64,000 nucleotides of DNA from Cyanobium sp. Cruz CV13-4-11 (lineage in GTDB: Bacteria; Cyanobacteriota; Cyanobacteriia; PCC-6307; Cyanobiaceae). The notes under the pieces were generated by a model. It was not told the DNA's origin. It worked only from the letters and a program-made list of their open reading frames with translations, and searched no databases. Every line of letters starts with the position of its first letter. Positions within the stretch are counted from its first letter, which is position 1. The translations under genes and the position numbers were made by a program. Location: positions 1 to 64,000 of the forward strand of contig NZ_JAGQCH010000011.1 in assembly GCF_024346055.1 (NCBI RefSeq), given 5' to 3'. Of the stretch, positions 3,382 to 39,041 are shown piece after piece.

Positions 3382-4019
3382 GAGCGGGGCGCTGCGTTCA
3401 GAGCCGCCACGAACTCCCCGCTGCTGATCTGCTCGCCATAGCCGGCGAAGCAGTCCAGGGCGGCGGCATGGCGCTCCGGGGTCACCGCCAGGCAGGCGTC
3501 GTGGATGCACACCACCCGGTAGCCGCGGTCGGCGGCGTCCTTCACGGTGTGGTCGATGCACTGGTCGGTGAGCAGCCCGATCACCACCAGGGTGCGGATG
3601 CCCAGGTTGCGCAGCAGGTCGTCGAGGCTGGTGGAGCTGAAGGGCGAGGAGGAGCTCTTGGGGAGCACCAGCTCATCGGCCAGGGGCGCCAGCTCGGCGA
3701 TCACCTCGGCGGCGCGGCTGCCGGGCGGGAAGCCCATGCCGCAGCGCTTGTCGTCAAAGCTGCGGTCGCGCCCGTCGGCGGTGAGGTTGGCGATCACGGT
3801 GTGGATCACCTCCAGAGCGCCGCGGCGGGCCGCCGCCAGCACCCGCTCGGCGTTCGGCAGGGTGGTGGCGCGGAAGCGGCGATCGAAGTCCGGATCCGGC
3901 CGGGGCTGGGCGTCACCGCAGGTGCCCTGCTGCAGGTCCACCAGCAGCAGCGCGGTGCCGCCCGGGTGGAGCCTCCGCGGGTGAGCACGACGGCATGCAG
4001 GCGGCGGCGATCCGTCCAA
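3357..4019 (-). CDS. Isochorismatase-like cysteine hydrolase
   Basis: The 220-residue protein has the catalytic Asp-Lys-Cys triad of the isochorismatase/nicotinamidase superfamily: D28 in LLLVDLQQG, K121 in LVLPKSSSS, and C154 in GLLTDQCIDHTVKDA. Members hydrolyse amides or enol ethers such as nicotinamide, N-carbamoyl compounds, ureidoacrylate or isochorismate; the substrate here cannot be told. The frame opens with TTG at 4019, and no ATG or GTG in the frame would give a full first beta strand, so the start is uncertain. It diverges from a broken glutamine-synthetase-like gene 48 bases away. The pair may once have worked together in amide or polyamine-type nitrogen metabolism; that link is inference. 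Confidence 0.82.
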   Translation of the reverse strand: MDGSPPPACRRAHPRRLHPGGTALLLVDLQQGTCGDAQPRPDPDFDRRFRATTLPNAERVLAAARRGALEVIHTVIANLTADGRDRSFDDKRCGMGFPPGSRAAEVIAELAPLADELVLPKSSSSPFSSTSLDDLLRNLGIRTLVVIGLLTDQCIDHTVKDAADRGYRVVCIHDACLAVTPERHAAALDCFAGYGEQISSGEFVAALNAAPRSQAIGSGS

Positions 4020-4067
4020 TCATGGCGGCAGATGCTTGCCGGGCCCGTGTCCTCTCCCCCCGCCCCC

Positions 4068-4677
4068 ATGGCCGCGGCGCTGGCCGCCCAGGGGATCCGC
4101 TGGGTGGCGATCACCTGGGTGAACCACGCCGGGGCGCCGCTGGTGAAGGTGGTCCCCCTGGCCGATGCCTTCGACGCCAACGGCGCCATCGCTGCCGCCC
4201 ATCGCCTGGCCCGGCCCGACGGCGACCTGCGCCTGCGGGCGGATGGGGCGGCCCTGGCGCCGCTGGAGCCCGGCAGCGGGTGGGCAACGGCGGCCACCTG
4301 CACCTGAGCCTGCGGCGCGACGGGGCGGCGCTGCTGGAGGGCGGCGACGGCGAGGCCGGTCTCAGCGACGCTGGCGCCGCGGTGCTGGCGGCCCTGCTGG
4401 CGGTGTCCTACCGGCGGCTGGCCCCGGGTTCCTGGTCGGCACCGTTCCAGGTGTGGGGGGTGGAGAACCGGGAAGCGGCCCTGCGGCTGGTACCCGCCGC
4501 AGCCGATGGCGCCCCGGCCCACCTGGAGCTGAAGGTGGCGGACCTGGCCGCCAATCCCTACCTGCTGCTGGGGGCGGCGATCCGGCCCGGTTGCCCGCCG
4601 GGACGGTGGCGGGCTGCAGTGAGGCGGAGCTGGTGGCGGCGGCGGCCTGGTGGCCGGTGGTGGGGGGGATCGGCTGA
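4068..4677 (+). pseudogene. Decayed glutamine-synthetase-like gene (internal deletion and frameshifts)
   Basis: Three frames must be joined to read this gene. From the ATG at 4068 to about 4290 the frame gives a GS-like N-terminal beta-grasp (GIRWVAITWVNHAGAPLVKV, then DGDLRLRADG). At about 4277 the similarity continues one frame over with the catalytic-core motif GNGGHLHLSL, followed by SYRRLAPGSW, VWGVENREAALRLV and LELKVADLAANPYLLLGA. After about 4610 a third frame runs to a stop at 4677. Roughly 150 residues normally found between the two parts are absent. Total length is about 200 codons against about 440 for the family. It was probably a GS-like gamma-glutamyl ligase paired with the divergent hydrolase, and is now non-functional. 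Confidence 0.78.
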
Positions 4678-6807: not shown

Positions 6808-7473
6808 ATGACCAACGTCTGGTGCGTCCGCGCGGGCGGCGGAATGTATGCAGACAATTTCCTCAGGGGCGGCTTCGTCGGCATCGGCTGGAGGGAGATC
6901 CTGCTCTCCAATGACGTCAATGAGATCCACCGCTTTCTGATTGAGATCCAGCCCAACGATCACGTCATCATTCCGTCGGCGAATACCGACCTTCTGATCC
7001 ACGGCGTCGTGGACGAAGCCACGCCCTATTACGACCCCAGCGGAGACGACGGCTGCCCCCTTCGCCATCGGCGTCCCGTCACCTGGGCGACCGAACCCAT
7101 CCGGCTGGACCTGTTCTCCACCCTGTTCCGGGATTCCATCCGCACCCTCCTCACCGTCCCGGCCCACAACCGGATGCGGTCGCTGCTGACGGTGTTCATG
7201 GTGGAGCACGAGGCCGAATTCATCCGGGCGATCGGCCCGAACGACAGGGTGGCCTCTGCCCCGCCGGCGACCTGGAAGGAGTCCCACCGCATCGTGCTGG
7301 AACAGCTGATGCAGCTGACCCCGCCCGAATTCGAGCGGCTCGTGGTTCATCTGCTCGATGCCCTCGGGTTCGAGGACTGGGAGCGGGCCGACCTGATCTC
7401 CCGCCACTGGAGCCACCTGCCTGGTGAGCTCCGGGATCGTCTATCGCTCGAACAGGCGCTGGTGAGGAACTGA
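6808..7473 (+). pseudogene. Mrr-like restriction endonuclease, C-terminal catalytic part missing
   Basis: The N-terminal part (VWCVRAGGG MYADNFLRGGFVGIGW) matches the PUA/EVE-like N-terminal region of many Mrr-type restriction enzymes. Residues 166-189 (QLMQLTPPEFERLVVHLLDALGFE) match the first helix of the Mrr catalytic domain. Immediately afterwards the expected GGxGDGGVD and QxK nuclease motifs are missing in all three frames; instead the protein ends with about 35 unrelated residues (ADLISRHWSHLPGEL) at a stop at 7473. At 221 residues it is well short of the usual 300 or more. I read it as a nuclease remnant whose tail was replaced by a deletion or fusion, although a reading-only DNA-binding protein cannot be excluded. 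The start is ATG 6808. Confidence 0.65.
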
Positions 7474-23066: not shown

Positions 23067-23545
23067 TCGCTGCCGGCGGCGGGCTCGGGGCGCCGAAACA
23101 CCAGCACGGGCAGGTCGGTGTGGGTCAGCACCTGCTGGGTCTCGCTGCCCAGCAGCAGCCCGGCGAGGCCGCGGCGGCCGTGGGAGGCCATGAAGATCAG
23201 GTCGCAGCCGTGGCTGGTGGCGGCTTCGATGATCGCCTCGTAAACCACCGGGTGGTCGCCCACGGCCGTGTCGCAGGGGACGCCGGCCTTCTCGGCCAGG
23301 GCCCGGGCCCGCTCCAGCAGAGCGGCGGCATAGGACCGCTCCGCCTGGCTGAACTTCGCCACCACGGTCGGATCAAGCAGCACCGGATCGCCGTAGAGGG
23401 AGCCCTGGGGGGGCATCGCCAGGTTGGCGAGCACGTGCAGGAAAGTGATGGAGGCCCCCGCCTCGCGGGCGAAACTCACCGCCCGGCGGATCGTGCCGTC
23501 GGAGAGATCGGAGCCGTCGGTGGGCACCAGCAGGTGACGGAACAT
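23027..23545 (-). CDS. Universal stress protein (UspA family)
   Basis: From ATG 23545 the 172-residue protein has the Usp fold: MFRHLLVPTDGSDLSDGTIRRAVSFA, a middle VLANLAMPPQG segment, and the ATP-binding signature MASHGRRGLAGLLLGSETQQVLTHTDLPVLV. The GxxG(9)GS(T) pattern (here GRRGLAGLLLGSE) suggests nucleotide binding. The ORF runs further upstream to 23773, but that part overlaps the divergent phosphatase gene. Its 3' end overlaps the OpuB fusion's 3' end by 40 bases in convergent orientation. Such proteins are induced by stress; nothing in the DNA shows how this one is regulated. Confidence 0.9.
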   Translation of the reverse strand: MFRHLLVPTDGSDLSDGTIRRAVSFAREAGASITFLHVLANLAMPPQGSLYGDPVLLDPTVVAKFSQAERSYAAALLERARALAEKAGVPCDTAVGDHPVVYEAIIEAATSHGCDLIFMASHGRRGLAGLLLGSETQQVLTHTDLPVLVFRRPEPAAGSDQGAASAPAAPAC

Positions 23546-23683
23546 CGGCCTCGCCTCACGCGCGCTGGGGTGGATCCATGATCGCGCCCCTGCGAGGTGT
23601 CGAGGGCTGCCGTGCTGGCTCAGCTTGGTGACAAAGCCTCGTTGAACCCCAATCCTTGGGATCAGATCCGTGTCGACCAATCC

Positions 23684-24292
23684 ATGACGACGATCCAGAA
23701 CGCTCCCACCCCCGCCCGCGAGGTGGTCCTCATCCGCCACGGAGAAACGGCCTGGAGCCTCTCGGGCCAGCACACCGGCAGCACCGACATCCCCCTCACC
23801 GAGCGGGGGGAGGCGGCCGCCCGCGGGCTGGTGCCGCTCCTGGCGGCGAGCCCGTTTTCCCTGGTGCTGTGCAGCCCCCTGCAGCGGGCCCGGCGCACCT
23901 GCGAACTGGCGGGCCTGGCCGCCCAGGCCTGCCTCGAGCCCGATCTGGTCGAGTGGAACTACGGGGCCTACGAAGGTCTAACGAGCACGGAGATCGAGCG
24001 GGATCGGCCGGGCTGGCTGGTGTTCCGTGATGGCTGTCCCGACGGGGAGAGTCCCGCCCAGGTGGGGGAACGGGTCGACCGGGTGATCGGTCGGCTGCGG
24101 CAGGAGGGCGGCCGGGTGGCCCTGTTCGCCCACGGGCATCTGCTGCGGGTGTTCGTGGCGCGCTGGATCGGGCTGCCGCCCAGCCACGGCGCCCATTTCC
24201 TGCTCGACACCGCCACGCTCACGATCCTGTCCGACTACCGCGGCCTGCCGGCGGTGAAGTGCTGGAACGCCCCCCTGGCTCCGGGCATCTGA
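23684..24292 (+). CDS. Histidine phosphatase family protein (phosphoglycerate-mutase-like)
   Basis: The 202-residue protein has RHGET at 18-22 with the phospho-accepting H19, EWNYGAYEGLT with the catalytic acid E, and HGHLLRVFVARW with the second histidine. The fold is that of cofactor-dependent mutases and broad phosphatases such as CobC or sugar-phosphate phosphatases. At about 200 residues it is closer to phosphatases than to GpmA. The gene starts at ATG 23684 and ends 65 bases before pgi on the same strand, so a sugar-phosphate role is plausible but not proven. Confidence 0.88.
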   Translation: MTTIQNAPTPAREVVLIRHGETAWSLSGQHTGSTDIPLTERGEAAARGLVPLLAASPFSLVLCSPLQRARRTCELAGLAAQACLEPDLVEWNYGAYEGLTSTEIERDRPGWLVFRDGCPDGESPAQVGERVDRVIGRLRQEGGRVALFAHGHLLRVFVARWIGLPPSHGAHFLLDTATLTILSDYRGLPAVKCWNAPLAPGI

Positions 24293-24357
24293 TGGCTTCG
24301 CCGCCTTCCTTTACCTGCGCCGGGTAGGAACGTTTCAAGACATCGGCAGTCGAAACC

Positions 24358-25956
24358 ATGGGATCCCTCTGGAATCGTTTCCAGGAATGGCTGTACGTCC
24401 ACCCAGGCCTGCAGCTCCACCTGGATGTCAGCAGGATGGGCTTCGACGCTGGGCTGCCGGAACGGCTGGATTCCGCCTTCACCGCGGCCTTCGCGGCCAT
24501 GGAGGACCTTGAGGCGGGCGGCATCGCCAATCCAGACGAGGAGAGGATGGTGGGTCACTACTGGCTTCGCCAGCCCGACCTGGCCCCCAGCGAGGAGATC
24601 CGAACGGAAATCATCGCGGTGATCGAGCGGATCGAGGGCTTCGCCAGGAAGGTACACGCGGGCACGATCCATCCGCCGACGGCCCCCCGCTTCACCGATC
24701 TGCTGGCCATCGGCATCGGCGGCTCGGCCCTGGGACCCCAGTTCGTGGCCGCCGCCCTGGCCCCCGACCAGGCCCCCCTGGTCATCCACTTCATCGACAA
24801 CACCGACCCCGCCGGGATCGATCGGGTGCTGGCGGGGCTGCGGGACCGGCTGGGCAGCACCCTGGTGATCGACACCAGCAAGTCCGGAGGTACCCCCGAA
24901 CCGCGCAACGGCCTGCTGGAGGTGCAACAGGCCTTCGCCGCCCAGGGCCTGGACTTCCCCAGCCATGCCGTGGCGATCACCATGCCCGGCAGCCGGATGG
25001 ACCTCCTGGCCCACGATCAGCACTGGCTGGCCGAGTTCCCCATGCATGACTGGGTGGGTGGCCGCACCTCCGTGCTCTCGGCGGTGGGCCTCCTGCCTGC
25101 GGCCCTTCAGGGCATCGACATCCGGGCCCTGCTGGAGGGAGCCCGGGTGATGGACGAGGCCACCCGTGTGCCCCGGGTGCGTACCAACCCCGCCGCCCTG
25201 CTGGCCCTCAGCTGGTTCCACGCCGGAGAAGGCCGCGGCAGCAAGGACATGGTGGTGCTGCCCTACAAGGACAGCCTGCTGCTGTTCAGCCGCTACCTGC
25301 AGCAACTGGTGATGGAATCCCTCGGCAAGGAGAGGGACCTCGACGGCAAGGTCGTGCACCAGGGGATCGCGGTGTACGGCAACAAAGGCTCCACCGACCA
25401 GCATGCCTACGTTCAGCAGCTGCGCGAAGGCATCCCCAATTTCTTCGCCACCTTCATCGAAGTGCTCGAAGATCGCTGCGGCGATTCGATCGAGGTGGAG
25501 GAAGGAGTCACCTCAGGCGATTTCCTCTCCGGCTTCCTCATGGGGACCCGCCAGGCGCTGTACGACAACCAGCGCGATTCGATCACCATCACGATCCACC
25601 GCGTGGAGCCCCGCAGCGTCGGGGCTCTCATCGCGCTCTACGAGCGGGCCGTTGGACTGTATGCCTCGCTGGTGAACATCAACGCGTACCACCAGCCAGG
25701 CGTGGAAGCTGGCAAAAAGGCCGCCGCTGCCATTTTGGATCTGCAACGCCGGGTGGTCCGGGTGCTGCAGGCCGCCGACCACCCCCTCCCCCTGGAGGAC
25801 CTGGCCCGCCAGGCCGACGCCGGCGAAGCGGTGGAAACCGTCTACCAGATCGTGCGCCATCTGGCCGCCAATCCCCGCGGCATTGTCCTCGACGGCGATC
25901 CGGCCCAGCCCAACACCCTTACCGCGTCCCTCCGGCAGCTCGTTCTCCAGTCATGA
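24358..25956 (+). CDS. pgi: Glucose-6-phosphate isomerase
   Basis: The 532-residue protein has the phosphosugar-isomerase signatures: [15 protein letters not shown], the SIS substrate loop [14 protein letters not shown], the VGGRTSVLS segment, and [12 protein letters not shown] with the active-site histidine. It interconverts glucose-6-phosphate and fructose-6-phosphate. The length fits cyanobacterial enzymes. The stop overlaps the ATG of the transketolase-like gene (ATGA at 25953-25956), so Pgi and that protein are made from one message. Its product fructose-6-phosphate is a substrate of the phosphoketolase encoded 4.4 kb away. Confidence 0.96.
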
Positions 25957-27881
25957 CTCTCTCCCAGCCCGGTGTGACCAACGCCTTCCCGATCGATCTG
26001 GCGGCCTACCAGCCCCTGAGTCTCGATCCCACCCAGCCCAGGCTGAGCCCGTTGCAGAGGGACGCCCTGCGCTCCAACATCCAGCTCTGCAGGGACGCCA
26101 TTGTCTTCTTCACCGCGACTGGCGCCGCCCGGGGGGTGGGCGGCCACACCGGCGGCCCCTACGACACCGTGCCGGAGGTGATGATCCTTGATGGCTTCTT
26201 CCGCGGCGCGCCGGAGCGGTTCGTGCCGGTCTTCTTCGACGAGGCCGGCCACCGCGTCGCCACCCAGTACCTGATGGGGGTGCTGCGCGGCCATTTGCAG
26301 GCCAACGATCTGATGAACTACCGCGCCGCCCATTCGCGTCTCCCCGGCCACCCCGAGCTGGGCCTGACCCCCGGAGTGGAGTTCAGCTCCGGCCGACTGG
26401 GACATCTGTGGCCGTTCGTGAACGGGGTGGCCCTGGCCCATCCGGGTCGCATCCTCTTCTGCCTGGGCTCCGATGGTGCCCAGCAGGAGGGGGATGACGC
26501 CGAAGCGGCCCGCTTCGCGGTGGCCCACGGCCTCGATGTGAAGCTGGTGATCGACGACAACGACGTCACCATCGCCGGCCATCCTTCCCAGTACCAGAAG
26601 GGCTTTGACGTGGCCCGCACCCTGGCCGGCCAGGGCCTGGCCACCCTCAGCGGCGATGGCGAGGATCTCGACGACCTCTATGGCAGGCTCTGTGCCGCCG
26701 TGGCCACCGCAGGCCCAGTGGCCGTGGTCAACAAACGACCCATGGCGGTGGGGATCGAGGGGCTGGAGGGCTCCACCCACGGCCACGACGTGATTCCCGT
26801 CGACCTGGCGATCACCTACCTGGAGCAGCGAGGCCAGGTCGCCGCCGCCGCCTGCCTGAAGGCAATCGAGAAACCGGTCAATCCCACCATCTACCTGGGC
26901 TCCAGCCGCACCACCGCGGCCAACCGCAACGTCTTCGGTGACACAGTGGTGGAGGTACTCTCACGGCTGGAGCCCAGCGAGCGCAAGGACACGGTGCTCT
27001 GCGTCGACTCCGACCTGGAAGGCTCCTGCGGACTCAGCCAGATCCGCAAGGCCTATCCGGAGATCTTCATCAGCGGCGGGATCATGGAGCGGGCCAATTT
27101 CTCCGCCGCCGCCGGATTCGGCATGCAGAAGGGCCGCCAGGGCCTCTTCGCCACCTTCAGCGCTTTCCTGGAGATGTGCATCTCCGAGATCACCATGGCC
27201 CGGCTCAACGGTGCCAACGTGCTCTGCCATTTCTCCCACGCCGGTGTGGATGACATGGCCGACAACACCTGTCATTTCGGCCTCAACAACTGCTTCGCCG
27301 ACAACGGCCTCGACGATGACCACCACCCCACCCGGCTCTACTTCCCCGCCGATGCGGGGCAGATGAAGGCCTGTGTGGAGGCTGTGTTCCATGATCCCGG
27401 CCTGCGCTTCATCTTCTCGACCCGCTCCAAGGTGCCCAACCTGCTGGATGAACAGGGCCACGACCTGCATGGGGATGGCTATGTCTTCGAGCCCGGCCGC
27501 GATGAGGTGGTGCGCGAGGGTGATGCCGGCACGATCATCAGCTTCGGTGACTGCCTGTACCGGGCCCTCGATGCGGTGGAGCGCCTGCGCCAGGAGGGCA
27601 CCACCGTGCGGCTGATCAACAAGGCCAGCCTCAACGTCGTTGATGAAACGATGATGGAGACGATCGGCACATCCCCCTTCGTGCTGGTGGTGGAAGCCTT
27701 CAACCGCCGCACCGGCCTCGGCAGCCGCTTCGGCACCTGGTTGCTGGAGAGGGGCTACCACCCGAAGTATGCACACCTGGGCACCTGGCGTGAGGGCTGC
27801 GGCGGCCTCTGGGAGCAGGCTCCCCACCAGGGCATCGACAGCGAGGGCATCCTGGCCCACGTCCGCAATCTGCTGGGCTGA
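25953..27881 (+). CDS. Divergent single-chain transketolase-like enzyme
   Basis: The 642-residue protein follows transketolase architecture: a ThDP-binding first domain with GGHTGG at 63-68, [21 protein letters not shown] at about 130-150 and a cofactor motif GSDG at 172-175 with DDN at 201-203. The pyrimidine domain has [13 protein letters not shown], where E is the proton relay, then a C-terminal domain. It differs from housekeeping transketolase at HPGLPMG (TGGPYDT), TGPLGQG (SSGRLGH) and the H-D-S-I-G loop ([14 protein letters not shown]). Thiamine chemistry is likely kept, but sugar specificity may be altered. It is translationally coupled to pgi. The genome should carry a canonical tkt elsewhere. 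Confidence 0.85.
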
Positions 27882-27912
27882 GTGGAAGTGCCGTCGGCTT
27901 TCGGCCCACGTC

Positions 27913-29748
27913 CTATTGGCGGTCCCAGTCCAGATCCAGCTTCACCGAGCCACCCCTGGGGAGCAGGAAGGTGCGACAGACCAGATTCTCGAAGACGGGT
28001 TGCTGGCCCGAGGGGCGCAGCACCACGAATTTGAAGCGAATCGGCCGACCCGCCGATTCGTGGAACCCCACCTCGGCAAACCAGACGTCCCCATTGATGT
28101 ATTCCAGCTTGGGGCAGAAATCGACATCCCAGGCACCCAGTTCCGGGGCATCGCCGCAGACAGCCATGACCTCACCGGGGTGGGTGATGTAGTCGTTGAT
28201 CTGAAACTTGACCACCGTGGTGGCCTTCAGTGGCTCTCCCTGGACCGCCAGGACGCAGGCGCCCTTGCCCTGGATGGAGAGCTGCCGGATCGCCCCCTGC
28301 TCTACAACAACGTCCTGACCGGTGAGCAGGCAGGTGTGGGGCCCGTCAGGGAGGTCGGAATGCTCGATGTCGAGGGATGCGGAATCACCCTTGTTGACGA
28401 TGACGAAGACACGATTCTTGCGATAACGCCGGGTGAAGGCATAGAGGCCGTCGGAGATGTACTTCTGGCCGTGCCTGCCGTAGGAAAGGGCCCGGTTGCT
28501 CTTGCGCAGGGACGCCAGGGTGCGGATGATCCCCGAGAGTCTTGTTCCCGTCTCCCATGCGTCCATCATGGGCCGGTTGTAGGGGTCATGGCCACCGTCG
28601 GAATCGTTCACCAGGTACTGCTCAGTTCCATAGAACAGACAGGGAATGCCGCGAAGCGTCAGCAGCAGCACCGTGGCCAGCTCCAGATCCCCATGGCTGG
28701 GGCAGATGGAGAGGAAACGGGGCATATCGTGATTTTCGATGAACGTCACCAACGCGGTGGAACGCCGGTACACCGGATCCATCGCCAGCACCCTCTCGAT
28801 CAGGTGGAAGCCGCCAGGCTCATGGCCGCTGAAGGCGGAGCGGATGGCTCCCGCCAGCGCGAAGTCAAGCACCGAGACTCCCGTGTTGTTGGCATAGTTC
28901 AGATAGCGTCCATCCCAGGGCGAACCAAAGCCATACTCCCCGAAGAGAAACGTGTCAGGTTTGTGGGCCTGAATATCCGCGACAAACTCCTGCCAGAACC
29001 ACACCGGCATGTGCTTCAGGGTGTCGATGCGCAAGGCGTCAAAGCCGAGATCAAGCCAGGCCTTGATGGCACTTTTGATGTAGTTCCTGAAGTTAATGTT
29101 ACTCTCATTAAAAGTGGCCAGGCCGAGCATTTCATGATGAATAAGCTGAAACTCATCATCCCAGTCATTGATGTCCGGATAATGGTAATAAAAGCCATTG
29201 ATATCCTGATGGAAATCCGCCAGAGGTTCGCCGTCATCCGTTACAACTCCCTTACTGCCATTCAACTCGGGAGAACTATGATTGCAAACAATATCCAGAA
29301 CGATCTTGATGCCTCGTTCATGCAGGGCATCGACCATCCTTCGCAGGGTGTCGCATGATTTTACCGATGTCGCATCACCCAGCTTCACGAAATGGGGATT
29401 GACTCGCTTGAAATCCTTTGTCCAGTAGCCGTGCATGGGGCCATGGCCATGCTCGATGGCATCCACCTGCTCGAACAGCGGGGAAAGCCAAACTGCTGTG
29501 ATACCAAGTTGTTTGAGATAGTCTGCCTTCTCGATGATCCCTTCGAGATCGCCACCCCAATAGTGCCCCCATTGGCTCCTGCTCGGGTCATAAAGCCCCT
29601 TCTTGCTGACGCCGTCGTTGGCCCTGTCGCCATTGAAAAAGCGATCAATCACGATGAAGTAGATTGTCTCCTTGCGGAATTCCGCCTCCTGCTCGAACAA
29701 CTGATGGGCGGAGACGGGAGCGTACCCATCCGGGGTGCTGACAACCAT
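27913..29748 (-). CDS. Cytosolic GH13 alpha-amylase with C-terminal CBM20 starch-binding domain
   Basis: The 611-residue protein has the GH13 catalytic barrel, including DIVCNH (152-157), nucleophile D242 in LRIDTLKH, acid/base E271 in FLFGEYGFG and D341 in FIENHD. A C-terminal beta domain is followed from about residue 507 by a CBM20 module (VVKFQINDYITHPGEVMAVCGDAPELGAW read in two parts). Architecture resembles CGTase-type GH13_2 enzymes but with no signal peptide, so it should act inside the cell, most likely on glycogen. It converges with the transketolase-like gene and is divergent from the small ORF and phosphoketolase gene. Base composition is somewhat lower in G+C than its neighbours, which hints at transfer. 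Confidence 0.9.
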   Translation of the reverse strand: MVVSTPDGYAPVSAHQLFEQEAEFRKETIYFIVIDRFFNGDRANDGVSKKGLYDPSRSQWGHYWGGDLEGIIEKADYLKQLGITAVWLSPLFEQVDAIEHGHGPMHGYWTKDFKRVNPHFVKLGDATSVKSCDTLRRMVDALHERGIKIVLDIVCNHSSPELNGSKGVVTDDGEPLADFHQDINGFYYHYPDINDWDDEFQLIHHEMLGLATFNESNINFRNYIKSAIKAWLDLGFDALRIDTLKHMPVWFWQEFVADIQAHKPDTFLFGEYGFGSPWDGRYLNYANNTGVSVLDFALAGAIRSAFSGHEPGGFHLIERVLAMDPVYRRSTALVTFIENHDMPRFLSICPSHGDLELATVLLLTLRGIPCLFYGTEQYLVNDSDGGHDPYNRPMMDAWETGTRLSGIIRTLASLRKSNRALSYGRHGQKYISDGLYAFTRRYRKNRVFVIVNKGDSASLDIEHSDLPDGPHTCLLTGQDVVVEQGAIRQLSIQGKGACVLAVQGEPLKATTVVKFQINDYITHPGEVMAVCGDAPELGAWDVDFCPKLEYINGDVWFAEVGFHESAGRPIRFKFVVLRPSGQQPVFENLVCRTFLLPRGGSVKLDLDWDRQ

Positions 29749-30309
29749 GACGGGACCGCGCTCTCGGCGTAAGGGCTCCAGCTTGCTACGCGCGGGAGAT
29801 CAGGGGGTTAAGAGCGGCAGGGCAGCACCCCGATGCGGGGGGCGGATCCCGGCATCTGGCACCAACCATCACCAGGGCTGATGCTCCCGCCCACGGCCCT
29901 CGACATGACCCGAGCACCGTGGCGTCATGGGGCTGGCTCTCCAGATGATCCATGCCACTGTTTCTTCTGCGCGACGGTTCGATTCGCCGCTTCAGCGTCC
30001 TTCCTGAAGGAGTGAACACCTTCCTCTACAGAGATCGCCATCAACGCAAGGTTCACGCGCTGCTGGAGGCACGTCAGGAGGCAATCCTGCTGGCAGCTCA
30101 GCCGACGCCGACCAGGACGCATCGGCATCGAGCCCCCCAGGCGAGCTCCGCCAGGCCGCCGCTGGCCGCCTGAGGACGGCGCATGGTTGCACGACGCTTA
30201 AGGCCCCTGCACCGCGCATGTCGAATCCCTGACATCGGCACTGCAGGGTTGAGAACTTACCGCCCGTTTAACGCAGCCGGGCGAGAGTCTTTCCTACAAG
30301 CCTCTGCAG
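29749..30309. other. Divergent intergenic region between amylase and phosphoketolase genes
   Basis: About 560 bases separate the amylase and phosphoketolase starts. It should contain both promoters, but I could not assign -35/-10 pairs with confidence. No NtcA-type GTA-N8-TAC palindrome was found by eye. One small open frame (29952-30173, listed separately) lies inside. Nothing else is supported. Confidence 0.4.
29952..30173 (+). CDS. Possible small protein, 73 residues
   Basis: ATG 29952 opens a frame reading MPLFLLRDGSIRRFSVLPEG, then FLYRDRHQRKVHALLEARQEAILLA, before a proline- and arginine-rich tail. The first 50 residues look like a compact alpha/beta peptide; the tail looks like readthrough into non-coding DNA. 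No family known. It may be a short gene linked to the phosphoketolase operon 137 bases downstream, or a chance frame. Confidence 0.3.
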   Translation: MPLFLLRDGSIRRFSVLPEGVNTFLYRDRHQRKVHALLEARQEAILLAAQPTPTRTHRHRAPQASSARPPLAA

Positions 30310-32751
30310 GTGACGGTGATGTCCTCTTCGATGATGGCCCCCTTCGAGACCCACGCCTCGACACCCGATCCCTCCCAGGAACTGTCCCTGATCGATGCCT
30401 GGTGGCGCGCCGCCAACTACCTGGCCGTAGGGATGATCTACCTGCGCGCCAACCCGTTACTGGCCCAGCCGCTGCGTCATGAGCACGTCAAGGCGCGGCT
30501 GCTGGGGCACTGGGGCTCCTCTCCCGGCCAGGCCTTCCTCTGGGCCCATGCCAACCGGGTGATCCGCCGCCACGACCTCGACATGATCTACCTCTCCGGG
30601 CCCGGTCACGGCGCCCCCGGAGTGCTCGGCCCCACCTACCTCGACGGCAGCTACAGCGAGGTCTACCCCGACAAGAGCCAGGACGCCGAAGGGATGCGGC
30701 GCTTCTTCAAGCAGTTCTCCTTCCCCGGACACATCGGCAGCCACTGCACCCCGGAAACCCCCGGGTCGATCCACGAGGGGGGCGAGCTGGGCTACGTGCT
30801 CTCGCACGCCTGCGGAGCGGTGTTCGACAACCCCAACCTGATCGCCCTGGCCTGCGTGGGGGATGGCGAAGCCGAGACCGGCCCCCTGGCCACCTCCTGG
30901 CACATCAACAAGTTCCTCAATCCGATCGGCGACGGGGCGGTGCTGCCCGTCCTGCACCTCAACGGCTACAAGATCGCCAACCCCACCCTGCTGGCCCGCA
31001 TCCCCCGCGACGAGCTGGCCAGCCTGATGCGCGGCAACGGCTGGGAGCCGATCTTCGTCGAAGGCCATGAGCCGATGGCGATGCACCAGGCCATGGCCGC
31101 CGCCATGGACCAGGCGATCGCCCGCATCCTGGAGATCCGCGCCGAGGCTCGCGCCAGCGGCGAGGCCGTCCGCCCCGCCTGGCCGATGATCGTGCTGCGC
31201 TCGCCCAAGGGCTGGACCGGACCGGCCTCCCTGCACGGCAAGAAGCTGGAGGGCTTCTGGCGGGCCCACCAGGTGCCCCTGGCCGCGCCGAACACAGATC
31301 CCGAACAACTGCAGTTGCTTGAGGAGTGGCTCAGGAGCTACCGGCCCGAGGAGCTGTTCGATGCCAACGGCACCCTGCGGCCCGAACTGCAGGCGCTCTC
31401 GCCCCTGGGAAATCGGCGGATGGGCTCCAACCCCCACGCCAACGGCGGCCTGCTGCGCCGCAAGCTGCAGTTCCCGCCCCTCGAGGACTATGCGGTGGAC
31501 GTGCAGGCACCGGGGGCCACCGAGGAGGAGAACACCTACCCCCTGGGCGAACTGCTCCGCGACATCATCCAGGCAAATCCCTATTCCATGCGGGTGTTCG
31601 GCCCCGACGAAACCGCCTCCAACCGTCTGCAGGCCATCTATGAAGTGAGCAAGAAGGTGTGGATGGAGGAGTTCCTGCCGGAGGACCTCAACGGCAGCGA
31701 ACTGGCCCGCAGCGGACGAGTGGTGGAGATGCTCAGCGAGCACACCCTGGTGGGAATGATGGAGGGCTACCTGCTCACCGGGCGCTACGGCTTCTTCCAC
31801 ACCTATGAGGCCTTCGCCCATGTGATCGCCTCGATGTTCAACCAGCACGCCAAATGGCTGGAATCCTGCCTCCTGCACGCCCCCTGGCGGGCCCCGATCG
31901 GCGCCTGGAACTGCCTGATCTCCTCCACGGTGTGGCGGCAGGACCATAACGGCTTCACCCACCAGGATCCCGGCTTCATCGACCTGGCCGGCAACAAGAG
32001 TGGTGACGTGGTACGGGTGTATCTGCCGGCCGATGCCAACTGCCTGCTGGCGGTGGCGGAAGAGGCCCTGCAGGAAACCAACGTCTGCAACATCATCGTC
32101 TCCGACAAACAGAAGCACCTCCAGTACTTCACCCTGGAGCAGGCCAGGCGCCACGTGGCCAAGGGCATCAGCATCGTCGGCTGGGCCAGCAACGACGACT
32201 GCGGCACCGAGCCGGATGAACCGGATGTGGTGATGGCCTGTGCCGGTGACATCCCCACCAAGGAGACGCTGGCGGCGGTGGAGATCCTGCGCCGGGAGAT
32301 CCCGAATCTGCGGATCCGGGTGATCAATGTGGTGAAGCTGTTCGCCCTCACCGAGCCGAACGAGCATCCCCACGGCCTGAGCGACCGGGACTTCGACACC
32401 CTGTTCACCACCGACCGGCCGGTGATCTTCAACTTCCACGGCTATCCCTGGCTGATCCACCGGCTCACCTACCGCCGCACCAACCACGCCAACATCCACG
32501 TGCGTGGCTACAAGGAGAAGGGCAACATCAACACGCCGCTCGAACTGGCGATGAACAACCAGATCGATCGCTTCAACCTGGTGATCGATGTGGTCAACCG
32601 GGTCCCCTTCCTGCGCTCCCGCGCCGCCCACGTCAAGGAGCGGATGCAGGACGCGATCCTGTCCCACCGGGCCTACGCCCACACCCACGGCACCGATGCC
32701 CCGGAAGTGACCGATTGGCGCTGGACACTGCCGATCGCCGGGCAGGGATGA
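30310..32751 (+). CDS. xfp: Phosphoketolase (xylulose-5-phosphate/fructose-6-phosphate)
   Basis: The 813-residue product has the full phosphoketolase pattern: [65 protein letters not shown], the ThDP motif [19 protein letters not shown], and the C-terminal GYPWLIHRL and [16 protein letters not shown] blocks (each read in parts). It splits xylulose-5-P or fructose-6-P with phosphate into acetyl-phosphate and a shorter sugar phosphate. The start may be GTG 30310 or the in-frame ATG 30319. Its stop overlaps the acetate kinase ATG, so the two enzymes form a coupled pair giving acetate and ATP. Confidence 0.96.
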
Positions 32752-33833
32752 CATCACCGTCCACAGCGACGCCCCCGGAGGCGGGGGAAGTGCTGGTGCT
32801 GAATGCCGGCAGCTCCAGCCTCAAGGTTTCGGTGCACACCCGCTCAGGGGACTGCCTCTGGAGGGACCAGCGCAACTGGAGCATCGGCGCCGCCGAAGAC
32901 ACCGAGGCGGTGCTGGACGCCTGGCTGCCCGAGGCCCTTTCGGCCTGGGGGGAGGGTCTGATCCGCGCCGGCCATCGGGTGGTCCATGGTGGCGAGCGCT
33001 TCACGGCCCCCGTCCGGCTGGATGCGGAGGTGCTGGAGGGGCTGGAGGGGCTGGTGCCCCTGGCTCCGTTGCACAACGGTCCGGCCCTGCGGGTGATGCG
33101 CTGGCTGGCCCGCTGGAAGCCCGCGATCGAGCAATGGGCCTGCTTCGACACCGCCTTCCACGGCACCCTGCCTGCGGCGGCCCGTACGTATGCGGTCCCA
33201 GCCCGCTGGCGCGCCGAGGGCCTGCGCCGCTTCGGTTTCCACGGCCTCAACCATCAGCACGTGGCCGAAAGCGTGGCCCGCCGCCGCGCCGATCCCAAAG
33301 GCCGCGAGGAGCTGCGACTGATCAGCTGCCACCTCGGCGCCGGCTGTTCCCTCTGCGCCATCCGGGGCGGGCGCAGCATCGCCACCACGATGGGCTACAC
33401 CCCAATGGAGGGTCTGGTGATGGCCACCCGCAGCGGTTCGGTGGATCCGGGGCTGTTGCTGCACCAGCTGCGCCGGGGGGCCACCGTCGAAGAGCTCGCC
33501 CATGATCTGCAGCAGGAGAGCGGCCTGCTGGGTCTCTCCGAGCTGAGTCCGAGCATGAAGGACCTGCGCCTGGCCGCCACCGACGGCCATGGCGGCGCCC
33601 AGCTCGCCATCGCGGTGTTCCGCCACCAGCTGCTGCAGGGCATCGGCGCCATGGCCGCCTGCCTGGGGGGGGTCGACGTGGTGGCCCTCACCGGCGGCAT
33701 CGGCGAACACGATGGCGCGCTGAAGCAGGAGCTGGAGCAGGCGCTGGCCTGGCTGGGGCCCTTCGAGCTGCTGCAGGTCGTGGCCGATGAGGAGGGTGTG
33801 ATCGCCCGCCACTGCGCCGCTGCGGGCGCCTGA
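32748..33833 (+). CDS. ackA: Acetate kinase
   Basis: The 361-residue protein begins [10 protein letters not shown] and carries the ASKHA-fold motifs [63 protein letters not shown] and [11 protein letters not shown]. It makes ATP and acetate from acetyl-phosphate. ATG 32748 is chosen because it overlaps the xfp stop (ATGA); the open frame extends upstream to 32715. It is shorter than the usual 390-400 residues; a shortened C-terminal lobe is likely. No phosphotransacetylase gene is in the window. Confidence 0.94.
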
Positions 33834-33844
33834 AGCCTCAGGCT
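33829..33844. terminator. Possible stem-loop between convergent ackA and sdhB
   Basis: GCCTGA and TCAGGC are inverted around four bases and span the stop codon of ackA and the end of sdhB, whose stops are only a few bases apart. The stem is six pairs with no T-run, so it is weak as an intrinsic terminator; it may only slow the polymerases. Confidence 0.25.
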
Positions 33845-34581
33845 CGCCGCCAGGATTCGCGGTGCATCCAGCTGATCCAGTCGGCGGAGACCTGCTTGGG
33901 GCAGGTGGCCTCGCATTCCAGGTGGCTGCTGCAGCTGCCGAAGCCTTCGCTGACCATCTGCGCCTGCATCACCCGGGCCCGGTGGCGCCGCTCCGGCTGG
34001 CCCTGGGGCAGCTGGCCCAGGTGCGCCAGCTTGGCCGCCACGAACAGGCTGGCGGAGGCGTTACGGCAGCTGGCCACGCAGGCGCCGCAGCCGATGCAGG
34101 CCGCCGTGTCGAAGGCCTGGGCCGCCTGCTCGCGGCCGATCAGCAGGGCATTCGCCTCCGGTGCACTGCCGATGTTGGTCGAGCAATAGCCGCCGGCGGC
34201 GATGATCCGGTCGAAGGCGGAGCGCTCCACGGCCAGGTCCTGCAGCACGGGAAAGGCCCGGGCGCGGAAGGGCTCCAGCGTCAGCACGGCGCCGTCGCGG
34301 AACTGACGCAGGTAGAGCTGGCAGACGCTGGTGGCCCGCTGGGGCCCCTGGGCCTGGCCGTTGACGAGAAAGCCGCAGGACCCGCAGATGCCCTCGCGGC
34401 AGTCGTGCTCGAACCCGACGGGACGGTCCCCGGCGGCGATCAGCCGTTCGTTGAGCAGGTCGAGGGCCTCCAGGAGGGAGAGGTCGGTGGAGACCGCGTC
34501 CAGCCCAAAAACCTCGAAGCCGCCGGGCTCGCCAGGTCCGTCCTGGCGCCAGATCCTCAGGGTGAGCGAAAGGGTTCCCAT
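33838..34581 (-). CDS. sdhB: Succinate dehydrogenase/fumarate reductase iron-sulfur subunit
   Basis: The 247-residue protein has the plant-type 2Fe-2S site (CREGICGSCG), a 4Fe-4S ferredoxin motif (ACIGCGACVASCRNAS) and the third cluster site (CSSHLECEATCPK), the three centres of SdhB. It passes electrons from FAD in SdhA to quinone at SdhC in the thylakoid or plasma membrane. ATG 34581 (MGTLSLTLRIW) is preferred; an upstream ATG at 34632 would add 17 residues. SdhB normally follows sdhA directly; here a gene for a cyclic di-GMP enzyme lies between them on the other strand, so sdhB must have its own promoter. Confidence 0.94.
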   Translation of the reverse strand: MGTLSLTLRIWRQDGPGEPGGFEVFGLDAVSTDLSLLEALDLLNERLIAAGDRPVGFEHDCREGICGSCGFLVNGQAQGPQRATSVCQLYLRQFRDGAVLTLEPFRARAFPVLQDLAVERSAFDRIIAAGGYCSTNIGSAPEANALLIGREQAAQAFDTAACIGCGACVASCRNASASLFVAAKLAHLGQLPQGQPERRHRARVMQAQMVSEGFGSCSSHLECEATCPKQVSADWISWMHRESWRRA

Positions 34582-34663
34582 GGGGACCCATTGTGCTGCC
34601 GAAGCGTCGGTGATGGTGTCATTCCGCATCATCCGGGTGGCCTAATGCCAGGAAGCGAGGGAA

Positions 34664-34712
34664 AACATGCAAAAATAGATAAATTTTTTCAAATACAATC
34701 GTCTGATCCCAT
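34664..34712. promoter_or_regulatory. AT-rich divergent promoter region for sdhB and the PAS-GGDEF-EAL gene
   Basis: A run of A/T-rich sequence is unusual in this G+C-rich window. On the plus strand TACAAT at 34694-34699 is a good -10 element about 38 bases before the GTG of the PAS-GGDEF-EAL gene; no clear -35 was found 17 bases upstream. On the minus strand the same stretch reads TTGAAA and TATCTA, which could serve sdhB. Start points are unverified. Confidence 0.4.
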
Positions 34713-34740
34713 GACCGTTCCGGTCTTCGCCGCCGCGTGA
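34711..34740 (+). promoter_or_regulatory. Nine-codon leader frame overlapping the GGDEF-EAL start
   Basis: ATG 34711 opens a tiny frame MTVPVFAAA whose TGA (34738-34740) overlaps the GTG start at 34737 in the sequence GTGA. If translated, ribosomes finishing the leader could restart on the main gene, coupling its translation. This is a visible arrangement, but expression of the leader is inferred only. Confidence 0.3.
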
Positions 34741-36500
34741 ACGGCGAACGCAAGCTGGTAGAGGAGCTGCGCCGGTCGATGGGCAGGCTTGAGGCTGCCC
34801 TGGGCACCATCAGCGATGCCCTGGTGATCACCAGTTGCGACGGGCAGGTGCTCTGGTGTAACGCCAGCTATTCCCAGTTGGTGGAGCGGCCCCCTCCGGA
34901 TCTGCTGGGCGAATCGATCTACGACCAGCTCCCCCGTGACTGCGAGGGTGCCCCCCTGGTGAACACCGAACAGGTGCTCGCCGGCGGCGAGCTGGGGGGA
35001 CAGTTCACCAAGGTGCTGAACCGCAATAAACTGCGCGCCATCGAGGTTGAGTGGAAGCCCATCCGCAGCGAGTGGCTGCGCCCCCTGATCTTCTGCTTAC
35101 GGGACGTCAGCGCCCTGCTCTCCTACGAACAGCTGCGGGTCGAGGCCGAGCGGCTCGAGCGCCGCCGCCAGCAGACCGAGAACCTGAACCGGGCGCTGGA
35201 GCTGGAACGCCTCGCCCTGGCCACCAAGGTGATGGAGTGCCCGGTCACCGGCCTGCCCAACCGTCGGGGACTCCACGTCAGCATCCGTGCCGCCCTCAAT
35301 ACCCAGCGGGAGAACGGCGGCCGGATCAGCATCCTGTTCTGCGATCTCAACTCTTTCAAGGAAATCAACGACCTTCACGGCCACCAGATCGGCGACGACC
35401 TGCTGATCGAGATCGGTCGACGGCTGAAGCGCTCCCTGCGTTTCGGTGACATCCTCTCGCGCCTTGGCGGCGACGAGTTCGTGGTGCTCACGATGGGCAT
35501 TTTTGATGAGAACGATGCCTTCCAAATGGCGATGCGCCTCAATGACGCCGTAGGCCAGGCATGGTCGGTGGAAGACCATACGATCCGCCCATCGATGAGC
35601 ATTGGCATCACCATCTCAGACGATCCTGAGATCTCCGTCAATGAGTTGATCCGGAGGGCCGATCTTGCCATGTACGAAGCCAAGACAAACGGTGATCATC
35701 ACATCTCTTTCTACCACCCCTCCATTGACAAGAAGGTGAGAAAGAACATCCAACTGCGCCATCAACTGGAGGGAGCTCTCCAGAATGAGGCCATGTTCCT
35801 GGCCTATCAGCCGATCGTCGAGCTGGGCAATCACATGGTGGTGGGTATGGAGGCGTTGTTGCGGCTGGGAGCCATCGCCTCGCCGATTGCCGCCCCGTCG
35901 GAATTCATTCCCCTGGCGGAACGAACGGCCCTGATTCTGCCGATCGGCCGCTGGGTGATCAGTCAGGCCCTGAAGTGCCTATGCAAGCTTCGCTCCGAGG
36001 GATCGGATGTCACCATGGCGGTCAACGTGAGCCCCATGCAGCTGAAGGAGAGTGGCTTCAGCGACTTCTTCCTCAGCCAGGCGGAACGGGCCGGTATTGA
36101 TCCCTCCTGGACGGTGATCGAGGTCACTGAGAGCATCCTGATTGAACATCCGTACCTGGCCACATCCGAGCTGAGCCGATTACGGGACGCTGGCGTCAAA
36201 GTGCATCTCGATGACTTCGGCACCGGTTACTCCAGCATGTCCTGGCTGGCACGACTGCCGATCGACACCATCAAGGTGGATCGAAGTTTCATCTCCGATT
36301 TTCTCCACGATCACCGCAAGGCCGTGGTGCTTGAGGCCATGATTCGCCTCTCCCGCGACCTGGGCATGGGCCTGATCGCCGAAGGCATCGAGACCATCGA
36401 GCAGCATGCGGGTCTGCTCGCCATGGGTTGTGTCCGGGGTCAGGGCTATCTCTTCGGCCGTCCCGAACCTCTCAGCCATAGCTGCGCGGTCCCGGCGTGA
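34737..36500 (+). CDS. PAS-GGDEF-EAL cyclic di-GMP enzyme
   Basis: The 587-residue soluble protein has an N-terminal PAS-like domain ([21 protein letters not shown]) at about 28-135, a short coiled linker rich in Glu and Arg, a GGDEF domain with [11 protein letters not shown] and an intact [11 protein letters not shown], and a C-terminal EAL domain with [43 protein letters not shown] and AEGIET, all catalytic residues present. It can potentially both make and degrade cyclic di-GMP. It lies between sdhA and sdhB on the opposite strand, and its end overlaps the end of sdhA by 29 bases. The start is GTG 34737. Confidence 0.92.
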
Positions 36501-38397
36501 TGGATCGGAACACGAGCGGCTCGCTGTGCCGGATGGGAGTGGCTCCGGGCCGGTGCTCCCAGGCGGCGATGTGGGCGAAGCGTTCATCATCCCGCTGGGC
36601 TTCGCCGGCCGGGGTCTGATGGTCCTCGCGGAAATGGGCGCCGCAGGATTCCTCCCGGGCCAGGGCATCGCGCAGCATCAGATCCGCCAGTCCGAAGAAA
36701 TCCTCCAGCCGCAGGGCCTTGGTCAGCTCACCATCGAGGAGGCCGTCCTCCTGGGGAATGCCGACCTCTTGCAGGAATTTCTCCCGTAGCGCCTCCAGCT
36801 CATCGACCGCCGCCGTGAGGCGATCCGGCCGGCGGCTGATGCCGCAGGCGTCAATCATCAGGTGGCCGAGGCTCCGGTGGAAGACATCGACGGGTTGGGA
36901 GCCACCCACGCGGCGCAGGGCCTCAAGGCGTGCCCCCACCGCCGCCAGCGCCTCGCGGCAGGCCGGGTGGTCGGCCGGCAGGGGGCCGCCGCTGGCCCGC
37001 TCCGCCAGCCAGCCCGTCACCGTTGCCGGGGCGATGAAATAGCCATCAGCCAGCGCCTGCATCAGGGCACTGGCCCCCAGCCGGTTGGCGCCATGCTCCG
37101 AGAAATTGGCCTCGCCGAGCACGAAAAGCCCCGGCACCGTGCTCATCAGGTGGTAGTCCACCCACAGCCCGCCCATCGTGTAGTGGGGCGCGGGATAGAT
37201 CCGCATCGGCGTGGTCCTGGGGTCGTCGCCGGTGATTCGCTCGTACATCTCCAGCAGGTTGCCGTAGCGGGCCTCGATCGCTTCGGGACCGTCCCGGGCG
37301 ATGGCCTCGGCCAGGTCGAGATACACCGAACGTCCCCCGGGCCCAACGCCCCGGCCCTCCAGGCAGAGCTCACGGGCGCGGCGTGAGGCCAGATCCCGGG
37401 GCACCAGATTGCCGTAGCTGGGGTATTGCCGCTCGAGGAAGTAATCCCGCTCCGCTGCCGGGATCGCCGCCGGCGGCCGGTCGTCGCCGGGGCGCAGCGG
37501 CAACCAGATCCGACCGTCGTTGCGCAGGCTCTCGCTCATCAAGGTGAGCTTGCTCTGATGGAGATCACCGCTGGGAATGCAGGTGGGGTGGATCTGGGTG
37601 AAGCAGGGGTTGGCGAAGCAGGCCCCCCGCCGATGGGCCTGCCAGATCGCCGTGGCGTTCGACTTCAGGGCATTGGTGGAGAGGTAGAAGACGTTGGAAT
37701 AGCCACCGGTGGCCAGCAGCACGGCATCGGCGCTGAGCACCTCCAGCGCACCGGTGAGCTGGTGCCGGCAGACCACCCCCCTGGCGACTCCGTCGTGGAC
37801 GATCAGGTCAAGCATGTCGCGGCGGCAGAGCAGTTCCACCCGGCCGGCGGCCACCTGCCGCAGCATCGCCTGGTAGGCGCCGTAAAGCAGCTGCTGCCCC
37901 GTCTGGCCCCGGGCATAGAAGGTGCGGCTCACCAGGGCCCCGCCGAAGCTGCGGTTGGCGAGGGTGCCGCCGTACTCCCGCGCGAAAGGCACCCCCTGGG
38001 CCACGCACTGGTCGATGATCGAGCCACTGATCTCCGCCAGCCGGTGGCAGCCCGCTTCCCGGGCGCGGAAATCACCGCCCTTCACGGTGTCGCGGAAGAG
38101 GCGCTCGACGCTGTCGCCGTCGTTGGCGTAGTTGCGGGCGGCGTTGATGCCCCCCTGGGCCGCCACCGAGTGGGCCCGGCGCGGGCTGTCGTGGTACGTG
38201 AGCACCTGCACCCGGTAGCCCTGCTCGGCCAGGCAGGCGGCAGCCGAGGCCCCCGCCAGACCACTGCCCACCACCAGGATCCGCAGCCCCTGCTTGCGGT
38301 TGGGGCTGAGCAGCGGCAAGCTCTCCCGGCAGCGCTGCCAGGCGGTGGCGATGGGGCCTTCCGGCAGGCGCGGATCCAGACGCGGATTGGGGCTCAT
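36472..38397 (-). CDS. sdhA: Succinate dehydrogenase/fumarate reductase flavoprotein subunit
   Basis: The 641-residue protein from ATG 38397 has a dinucleotide-binding start ([24 protein letters not shown]), the flavin-linkage region [15 protein letters not shown] with the histidine that carries covalent FAD in this family, [36 protein letters not shown] and [23 protein letters not shown]. It oxidises succinate to fumarate. An apparent frame extension to 38613 is antisense-like and overlaps sdhC. Its start overlaps the sdhC stop by four bases, so sdhC-sdhA are coupled. Confidence 0.96.
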
Positions 38398-39041
38398 CCG
38401 CCTGCCAGCAGCGGGACGGCGGGCCGCAGCACCAGGGCGAGGGGAAGCAGCGTGAAGCCCGCGCCCAGCAGCAGGGCCAGCCCCCGACCACCCAGGCGCA
38501 GGGCCGCCGCATGGGCGGGATCGAGCAGACCCAGCCGGCGCACGGCGCTCTCGGCGCCATGCAGCAGGTGCAGACCCGCCGCCAAACCGGCAGCCCCATA
38601 GAGGGCCAGGCACCAGGGCGCCTGCAACACGGTCAGCACCGTGGCCAGTTCAGCGCCGGCTGGCGGCCGGTGCCAGCGCAGCTGGACCAGGTGGACGGCA
38701 AGGAACAGCAGCAGCAGCGATCCACTCCAGGGGATCAGCCGGGCCGCCAGGGCCGTCAGCGACTCCCATGGCCCCTGGCGGCGGCTGCGCAGGGGGCTGG
38801 CCGCCGGGCCGCGGGCCTGGCGGTTGACGCGGGCCCGGTGCAGCGAGAGCAGGGGATGGCCCAGGCCGGCCGCCAGCAGGCCCACCTCCAGCCAGGGAAG
38901 CCAGGCCTGCTGGTGCAGGGAGGTGGCGAAGCGTTCGAACCCCAACGGATCCAGCAGGGCCATCCCAACGCCACCCAGGTGAATAGCCAGAAAGAGCACC
39001 AGAGCCAGGCCGGTGACGGCGATCCAGAATCCGACGATCAT
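38394..39041 (-). CDS. sdhC: Succinate dehydrogenase cytochrome b subunit (one-subunit type)
   Basis: The 215-residue protein has five predicted transmembrane stretches and histidines placed in helices ([52 protein letters not shown]) that suit two b-type hemes. This is the Bacillus-type, single-membrane-subunit anchor found in cyanobacteria. It anchors SdhA-SdhB and reduces quinone. It is the first gene of the sdhCA unit. Confidence 0.9.

Follow-up and report, generated by a model that had tools for sequence, protein, structure and literature searches.

The window analyzed here, a 64,000-nucleotide stretch of DNA from the freshwater cyanobacterium Cyanobium sp. Cruz CV13-4-11, carries a glucose-6-phosphate isomerase gene (pgi) that runs directly into a gene for a divergent transketolase-like protein, termed TKL below. 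The genes of this region, by position in the window, are:

23597-24292, + strand: histidine phosphatase / phosphoglycerate-mutase-like gene, ending 65 nt upstream of pgi
24358-25956, + strand: pgi, glucose-6-phosphate isomerase, 532 aa (NCBIfam PRK14096)
25953-27881, + strand: TKL, divergent single-chain transketolase-like protein, 642 aa (ORF, Pfam, active-site alignment)
27913-29748, - strand: GH13 alpha-amylase-family protein with CBM20, convergent with TKL
30310-32751, + strand: xfp, phosphoketolase, 813 aa (1416 bits, cut-off 1143)
32748-33833, + strand: ack, acetate kinase family (listed ORF begins at TTG 32715)

The pgi product scored 858 bits against NCBIfam PRK14096 (cut-off 671). The initial annotation had described pgi as coupled to a single-chain transketolase-like gene by overlapping stop and start codons, and reading across the junction (CAGTCATGACTCTC) bears this out to the base: the two genes share 4 bases, ATGA, with the ATG of TKL at 25953-25955 lying over the TGA of pgi at 25954-25956. 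The CATGAC at this junction is identical in all four genomes compared (window, L034, L129 and L042), and the histidine phosphatase / phosphoglycerate-mutase-like gene keeps its place before pgi in L034 and L042. The xfp-ack pair follows 2.4 kb downstream of TKL; because an ATG at 32748 forms a similar ATGA overlap with the xfp stop (32745-32756), ack more likely starts there than at TTG 32715. On the opposite strand after xfp-ack, positions 33838-38613 hold succinate dehydrogenase/fumarate reductase Fe-S and flavoprotein genes of the PRK07570/PRK07573 type. A scan of 23400-30500 for promoters and terminators returned one promoter-like site (0.9 expected) and no terminators (2.9 expected).

TKL within the transketolase family

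TKL reached the Pfam gathering scores of Transketolase_N (PF00456; 51.1 bits, cut-off 22) and Transketolase_C (PF02780; 43.7 bits, cut-off 25.9). The pyrimidine-binding domain PF02779 gave no Pfam match at E 0.001, but the middle pyrimidine region does align in full-length NCBIfam models. All NCBIfam transketolase cut-offs were missed by far (best 222.6 of 575 bits), as was that of dxs (43.5 of 465.95 bits); the best NCBIfam phosphoketolase score was 19.6 of 777 bits, and XFP_N, XFP and XFP_C gave no Pfam match at E 0.001. In the joint alignment, TKL shares 20% identity with phosphoketolase and with DXS, 21% with both E. coli TktA and the canonical enzyme of its own genome, and 22-25% with the short and split transketolases; its best solved relative is human transketolase by phmmer, profile and Foldseek E-value. 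A tree of 22 rows recovered TKL as one clade with a support of 100/100, the placement of which is unsure owing to long branches. Among transketolases, TKL forms a conserved branch of its own.

The same genome encodes a canonical transketolase of 672 aa elsewhere (G000:C7:17276-18277), which scored 519.6 bits to PF00456 vs. 47.9 bits for TKL in the same genome search. With this copy, TKL is neither the sole nor the main transketolase gene of the genome, and because the canonical gene is a separate one, TKL is not the housekeeping enzyme, a role for which it had already been deemed unlikely in the initial annotation. Weak matches elsewhere in this genome, named by eye, are presumably DXS (a DXS-like gene at C51) and a pyruvate dehydrogenase subunit. 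Canonical transketolase was present at >500 bits in 23 of 24 TKL genomes. The exception, G095, has TKL, no canonical tkt and a weak XFP_N match only; we considered that TKL had replaced canonical Tkt there, but judged the absence to be probably an assembly gap because the segment around tkt is missing as a whole. Of the 11,001 bases of a sister region (L150:3000-14000), only the first 891 and some scattered repeats had a counterpart in G095, and the neighbor of tkt, which by eye we take to be beta-ketoacyl-synthase-like, is 99% identical in two sisters and missing in G095 (best match 38%). Counting against this judgement, the G095 assembly has a completeness rating of 99% and comprises just 2 contigs, and the absence of tkt may be a real loss.

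Twenty residues to which the TktA literature assigns a role in the E. coli enzyme, in binding TPP, metal or the donor phosphate or in catalysis, were compared among these enzymes. TKL matched at 20/20, phosphoketolase at 15, DXS at 12 and two short transketolases at 17 each; a chance figure of 1e-14 for the 20/20 match overstates its significance since the positions were chosen as conserved. The proposal that TKL keeps thiamine-binding and catalytic features is thus confirmed. The TktA phosphate set R358, S385, H461 and R520 corresponds to R325, S358, H429 and R491 of TKL, and these residues, together with D437, H441, E379 and others, are invariant in 23 of 23 aligned TKL members. The window phosphoketolase is without equivalents of R358, D469 and R520, whereas TKL has all three. 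Motifs around the active-site residues are unlike the canonical ones, with GEDGPTHQP replaced and GRLGH present. As to a supposed difference in the sugar-binding loops, it is the surroundings of the motifs that differ, while the substrate-contact residues of TktA are all kept. The suggestion of another donor or acceptor found no support, as the TPP, donor-phosphate and catalytic positions tested are all identical to those of E. coli TktA. With the phosphate set invariant and all 20 positions kept, a phosphorylated donor and ordinary chemistry would be likeliest, although the differing motifs around the active-site residues make an altered acceptor preference possible. TKL probably carries out ordinary ketol transfer in a catabolic setting.

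Of 292 genomes sampled from the phylum, 24 had a full-length TKL match (at least 63% identity), G066 holding broken copies only; in the window's own family the figure was 2 of the 36 sampled genomes (hand count). The best 80 of 442 GTDB loci were all cyanobacterial by title and 71-97% identical to TKL; culture-collection strains with the gene include Leptolyngbya PCC 6406, Fischerella thermalis PCC 7521 and Chlorogloeopsis fritschii PCC 6912. Given a dN/dS of 0.09-0.32 (vs. 4 relatives) and full-length relatives in other cyanobacteria at 63-97% identity, TKL is a real gene; mean column identity of the family is 80% among 23 members aligned. Searches of plasmids and phages yielded one copy on a Nostoc plasmid (72%), recorded as a 'transketolase C-terminal domain-containing protein', with the other relatives below 60% and listed at 22-33%. 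At the end of an IMG/VR contig (L114:5001-6923) lies a TKL of 56% identity, next to a Mu-like prophage. Among the matches listed for the B-like protein of this prophage, at 26-29% identity, most were from phages of Proteobacteria and three from phages of Bacillus. This TKL is likely a host gene outside the cyanobacteria, and the family probably reaches beyond that phylum. Among the literature matches listed, we recognized no paper on the TKL family, and the excerpts of PMC7744508, PMC4609045, PMC9034593, PMC11257934, PMC7281370, PMC4632739, PMC4915528, PMC6358636, PMC7895386 and PMC10365998 held no characterization of it that we recognized.

Gene neighborhoods and a DeoR-type regulator

In the genomes sampled, pgi adjoins TKL only in four of the Cyanobium type (window, G175, L034 and L042), and a general pairing of pgi with TKL was therefore rejected; a pgi 3.8 kb from TKL in L091 was treated as chance. 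On what was sampled, the pgi coupling is a clade-specific arrangement. In G242, which belongs to the same phylum as the window but to another class, a different transketolase relative (27%) shares a span (L028, 1501-2973 / 4004-4465) with a pgi-like match of 32%, which is cut by the locus end and lies about 1 kb upstream of the relative on the same strand.

The proposed link to phosphoketolase is weakly supported: proximity within 10 kb in four loci, all Cyanobium-type (window, G175, L042 and L044), speaks for it, but co-occurrence across genomes is uninformative. Outside the Cyanobium clade, xfp was near TKL only in L079 (Leptolyngbya), at 8.3 kb and on the other strand, the flanks scanned being at most 10 kb and many of them shorter. 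A full xfp is present in 23 of 24 TKL genomes by hand count. Outside family f1 these amount to 21 of 22, compared to 68 of the 81 remaining genomes of the class, and since 89 of 103 genomes there carry a full xfp anyway, we set co-occurrence aside as evidence. Within f1, the figures are 2/2 TKL genomes, which are congeners, vs. 6/34 others. Between TKL and xfp in L042 (12256-15313) and L044 (10983-12877) lie Na+/Pi-cotransporter and DUF1576 genes, the cotransporter being full-length in L042 and a below-cut-off fragment match in L044.

An isoamylase/GlgX-like gene stands beside TKL in L035, and both L036 and L039 show amylase-family matches at a similar place. The TKL of L126-L128, a divergent one (63%), is clustered with GH13, sucrose-phosphate-phosphatase-like (S6PP) and HAD phosphatase genes (families scanned in L126, matching ORFs in L127 and L128), and with what we take by eye to be epimerase, YjbQ-like and aminotransferase genes. 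Most TKL copies are lone genes with no common neighbor, and no context is family-wide; neighbors were chosen by the length of their ORFs, an unreliable guide where loci are GC-rich, as in Cyanobium/Synechococcus.

In Nostocales, the nearest upstream gene of TKL is a divergent DeoR-type regulator in 17 of 75 loci scanned (those with a usable neighbor among 91 loci given). All 19 DeoR-linked loci carry, between the DeoR gene and TKL, a block TTGAAA-N17-TATACT with an overlapping GAGTTTATACTY, which precedes TKL by 209-661 nt. Among 80 other TKL loci, the 720 nt upstream contained the promoter-like part once (L045) and the GAGTTTATACTY part never, in a comparison with 720 nt on both sides, six control loci dropped for short sequence and some genomes possibly counted twice. 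A control with 330 nt upstream, shorter than some of the DeoR-side regions, gave 0/75, and when the DeoR-side regions were Markov-resampled, 0.02 occurrences of the promoter-like part arose per 18 regions. The 19 loci are not independent because they come from related Nostocales, and shared descent may explain part of the block. The operator-like word GAGTTTATACTY was not found in the window at up to 1 mismatch. Taken as a set, the pgi, amylase/GlgX, GH13/S6PP, xfp-ack and DeoR contexts point to a role in sugar-phosphate breakdown.

Proposed role and rival readings

With moderate confidence, we propose that TKL is a true but divergent accessory transketolase isozyme that would act on phosphorylated sugars in sugar and glycogen breakdown. 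For activity, substrates, direction of flux and induction alike, what we infer is as follows: 1) TKL, as a deep and separate branch of the family, would bind TPP and move a two-carbon ketol unit between phosphorylated sugars, like the normal enzyme; 2) in the Cyanobium-type strain, TKL would be made together with Pgi, with storage glucan yielding glucose-6-phosphate, Pgi converting this to fructose-6-phosphate and TKL producing xylulose-5-phosphate plus erythrose-4-phosphate from it; 3) in Nostocales, TKL is probably induced by sugar phosphate via the divergent DeoR-type regulator.

The strongest rival, which we take seriously while judging it unlikely, is that TKL uses a phosphorylated donor with a special acceptor (a free or modified aldose, or formaldehyde) to give an unusual ketose. 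An identity of only 21-25% to the transketolases aligned, strongly conserved family-specific motifs and the clustering of a divergent subgroup with GH13, S6PP and HAD phosphatase genes would fit such a reaction, but the sugar-phosphate-holding residues of TktA (R358, S385, H461, R520, H26, H100 and D469) are all kept in TKL. Alternatively, TKL might be a redundant spare transketolase that serves no separate pathway and has persisted through chance or drift. Its patchy distribution (24/292) would agree with this, as would signs of decay: remnants, decayed or fragmentary, in G268 (C1:136869-138081) and G278 (C3:3106-3243) suggest repeated loss, and in G066 (L140) two tandem copies at 7279 and 11295 are both broken; in either copy, codon 277 is an in-frame TAG and the surroundings of the catalytic His278 have been replaced. 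Nevertheless, we regard this reading as improbable in view of the low dN/dS against 4 relatives, the 80% mean column identity of the 23 members and the promoter-like block in every one of the 19 DeoR-linked loci.

That TKL is a second phosphoketolase, the 'pket2' of sll0529 and alr1850, appears very improbable to us. In excerpts of the papers concerned, sll0529 is called a phosphoketolase in four and a 'putative transketolase' in another, and alr1850 of Anabaena is labelled pket2 in one and 'Transketolase' in another. Against it are the lack of any Pfam XFP match in TKL and the equivalents of R358, D469 and R520, present in TKL but not in the window phosphoketolase; in addition, a separate TPP-enzyme family of 730 aa with weak XFP and Transket_pyr matches (L151:5444-7642 in G095; L152:6100-8292 in G014) would fit the label better, and we disfavored the assignment of TKL to sll0529/'pket2'. 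ORFs of similar length and XFP_N score to this family occur in many sampled cyanobacteria, and it is possibly sll0529/alr1850 'pket2' itself. Finally, we give hardly any credence to a non-catalytic or regulatory transketolase relative, for which the unmatched Pfam pyrimidine domain could be cited, as the listed catalytic residues are all kept in 23/23 aligned members.

Beyond the accessory isozyme that we favor, a more ambitious version can be put forward only tentatively and seems to us rather doubtful, namely that TKL is a dedicated inducible family with a distinct substrate preference, which in some cyanobacteria serves a glycogen phosphoketolase shunt separate from the transketolase of the Calvin cycle, and that it has spread from clade to clade and reached at least one bacterium with a Mu-like prophage. 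Models of cyanobacterial carbon flux usually take one transketolase for both the Calvin cycle and sugar breakdown. If a second, separately regulated isozyme does exist, breakdown could run without drawing on the Calvin-cycle enzyme, and the modelling of dark metabolism and phosphoketolase flux would be altered in strains having TKL. A word of caution also applies to databases, where the label 'transketolase C-terminal domain-containing protein' need not denote a fragment or a spare copy.

Comparison with known thiamine enzymes

Canonical transketolases (E. coli TktA and the C7 copy of the same genome) share with TKL the Transketolase_N and Transketolase_C domains and all of the 20 active-site positions. 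In contrast to these, TKL joins its two TPP domains by a shorter linker (47 vs. 97 residues) and has an N-terminal FPIDL segment and the motifs GRLGH and MADNTCHFG. Human-type or short transketolases (PDB 4kxx, NCBIfam PRK05899.2-2 and Streptomyces L146) are the best structure and profile matches and are similar in length to TKL, with 22.5-24.3% identity over the four aligned; at the position of E. coli H473, TKL has H whereas the two short transketolases checked residue by residue have Q. Split-chain transketolases (PDB 6yak/6yaj and Enterococcus L147), with their chains joined end to end, are 24.5% identical to TKL, and 6yaj superposes on the predicted TKL structure with a Z of 28.1 and an rmsd of 2.6 over 284 residues; they comprise two chains, TKL one.

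Among the more distant enzymes, Xfp (window 30310-32751) belongs to the same TPP superfamily and is encoded by a neighboring gene, but it differs from TKL in its 20% identity, its 15/20 positions and its other phosphate-binding residues. DXS has only 12/20 active-site positions vs. 20/20 in TKL. The domain packing of the AF2 model nonetheless appears DXS-like (TM 0.61-0.68, vs. 0.35-0.42 for transketolases); this single-chain model has a pLDDT of 77, with active-site loops 126-142 and 431-446 below 50, and the packing is perhaps an artefact because one chain of a domain-swapped dimer was folded. For two transketolase isoforms in one organism, Rhodopseudomonas palustris (PMC3234253) reportedly provides a precedent.
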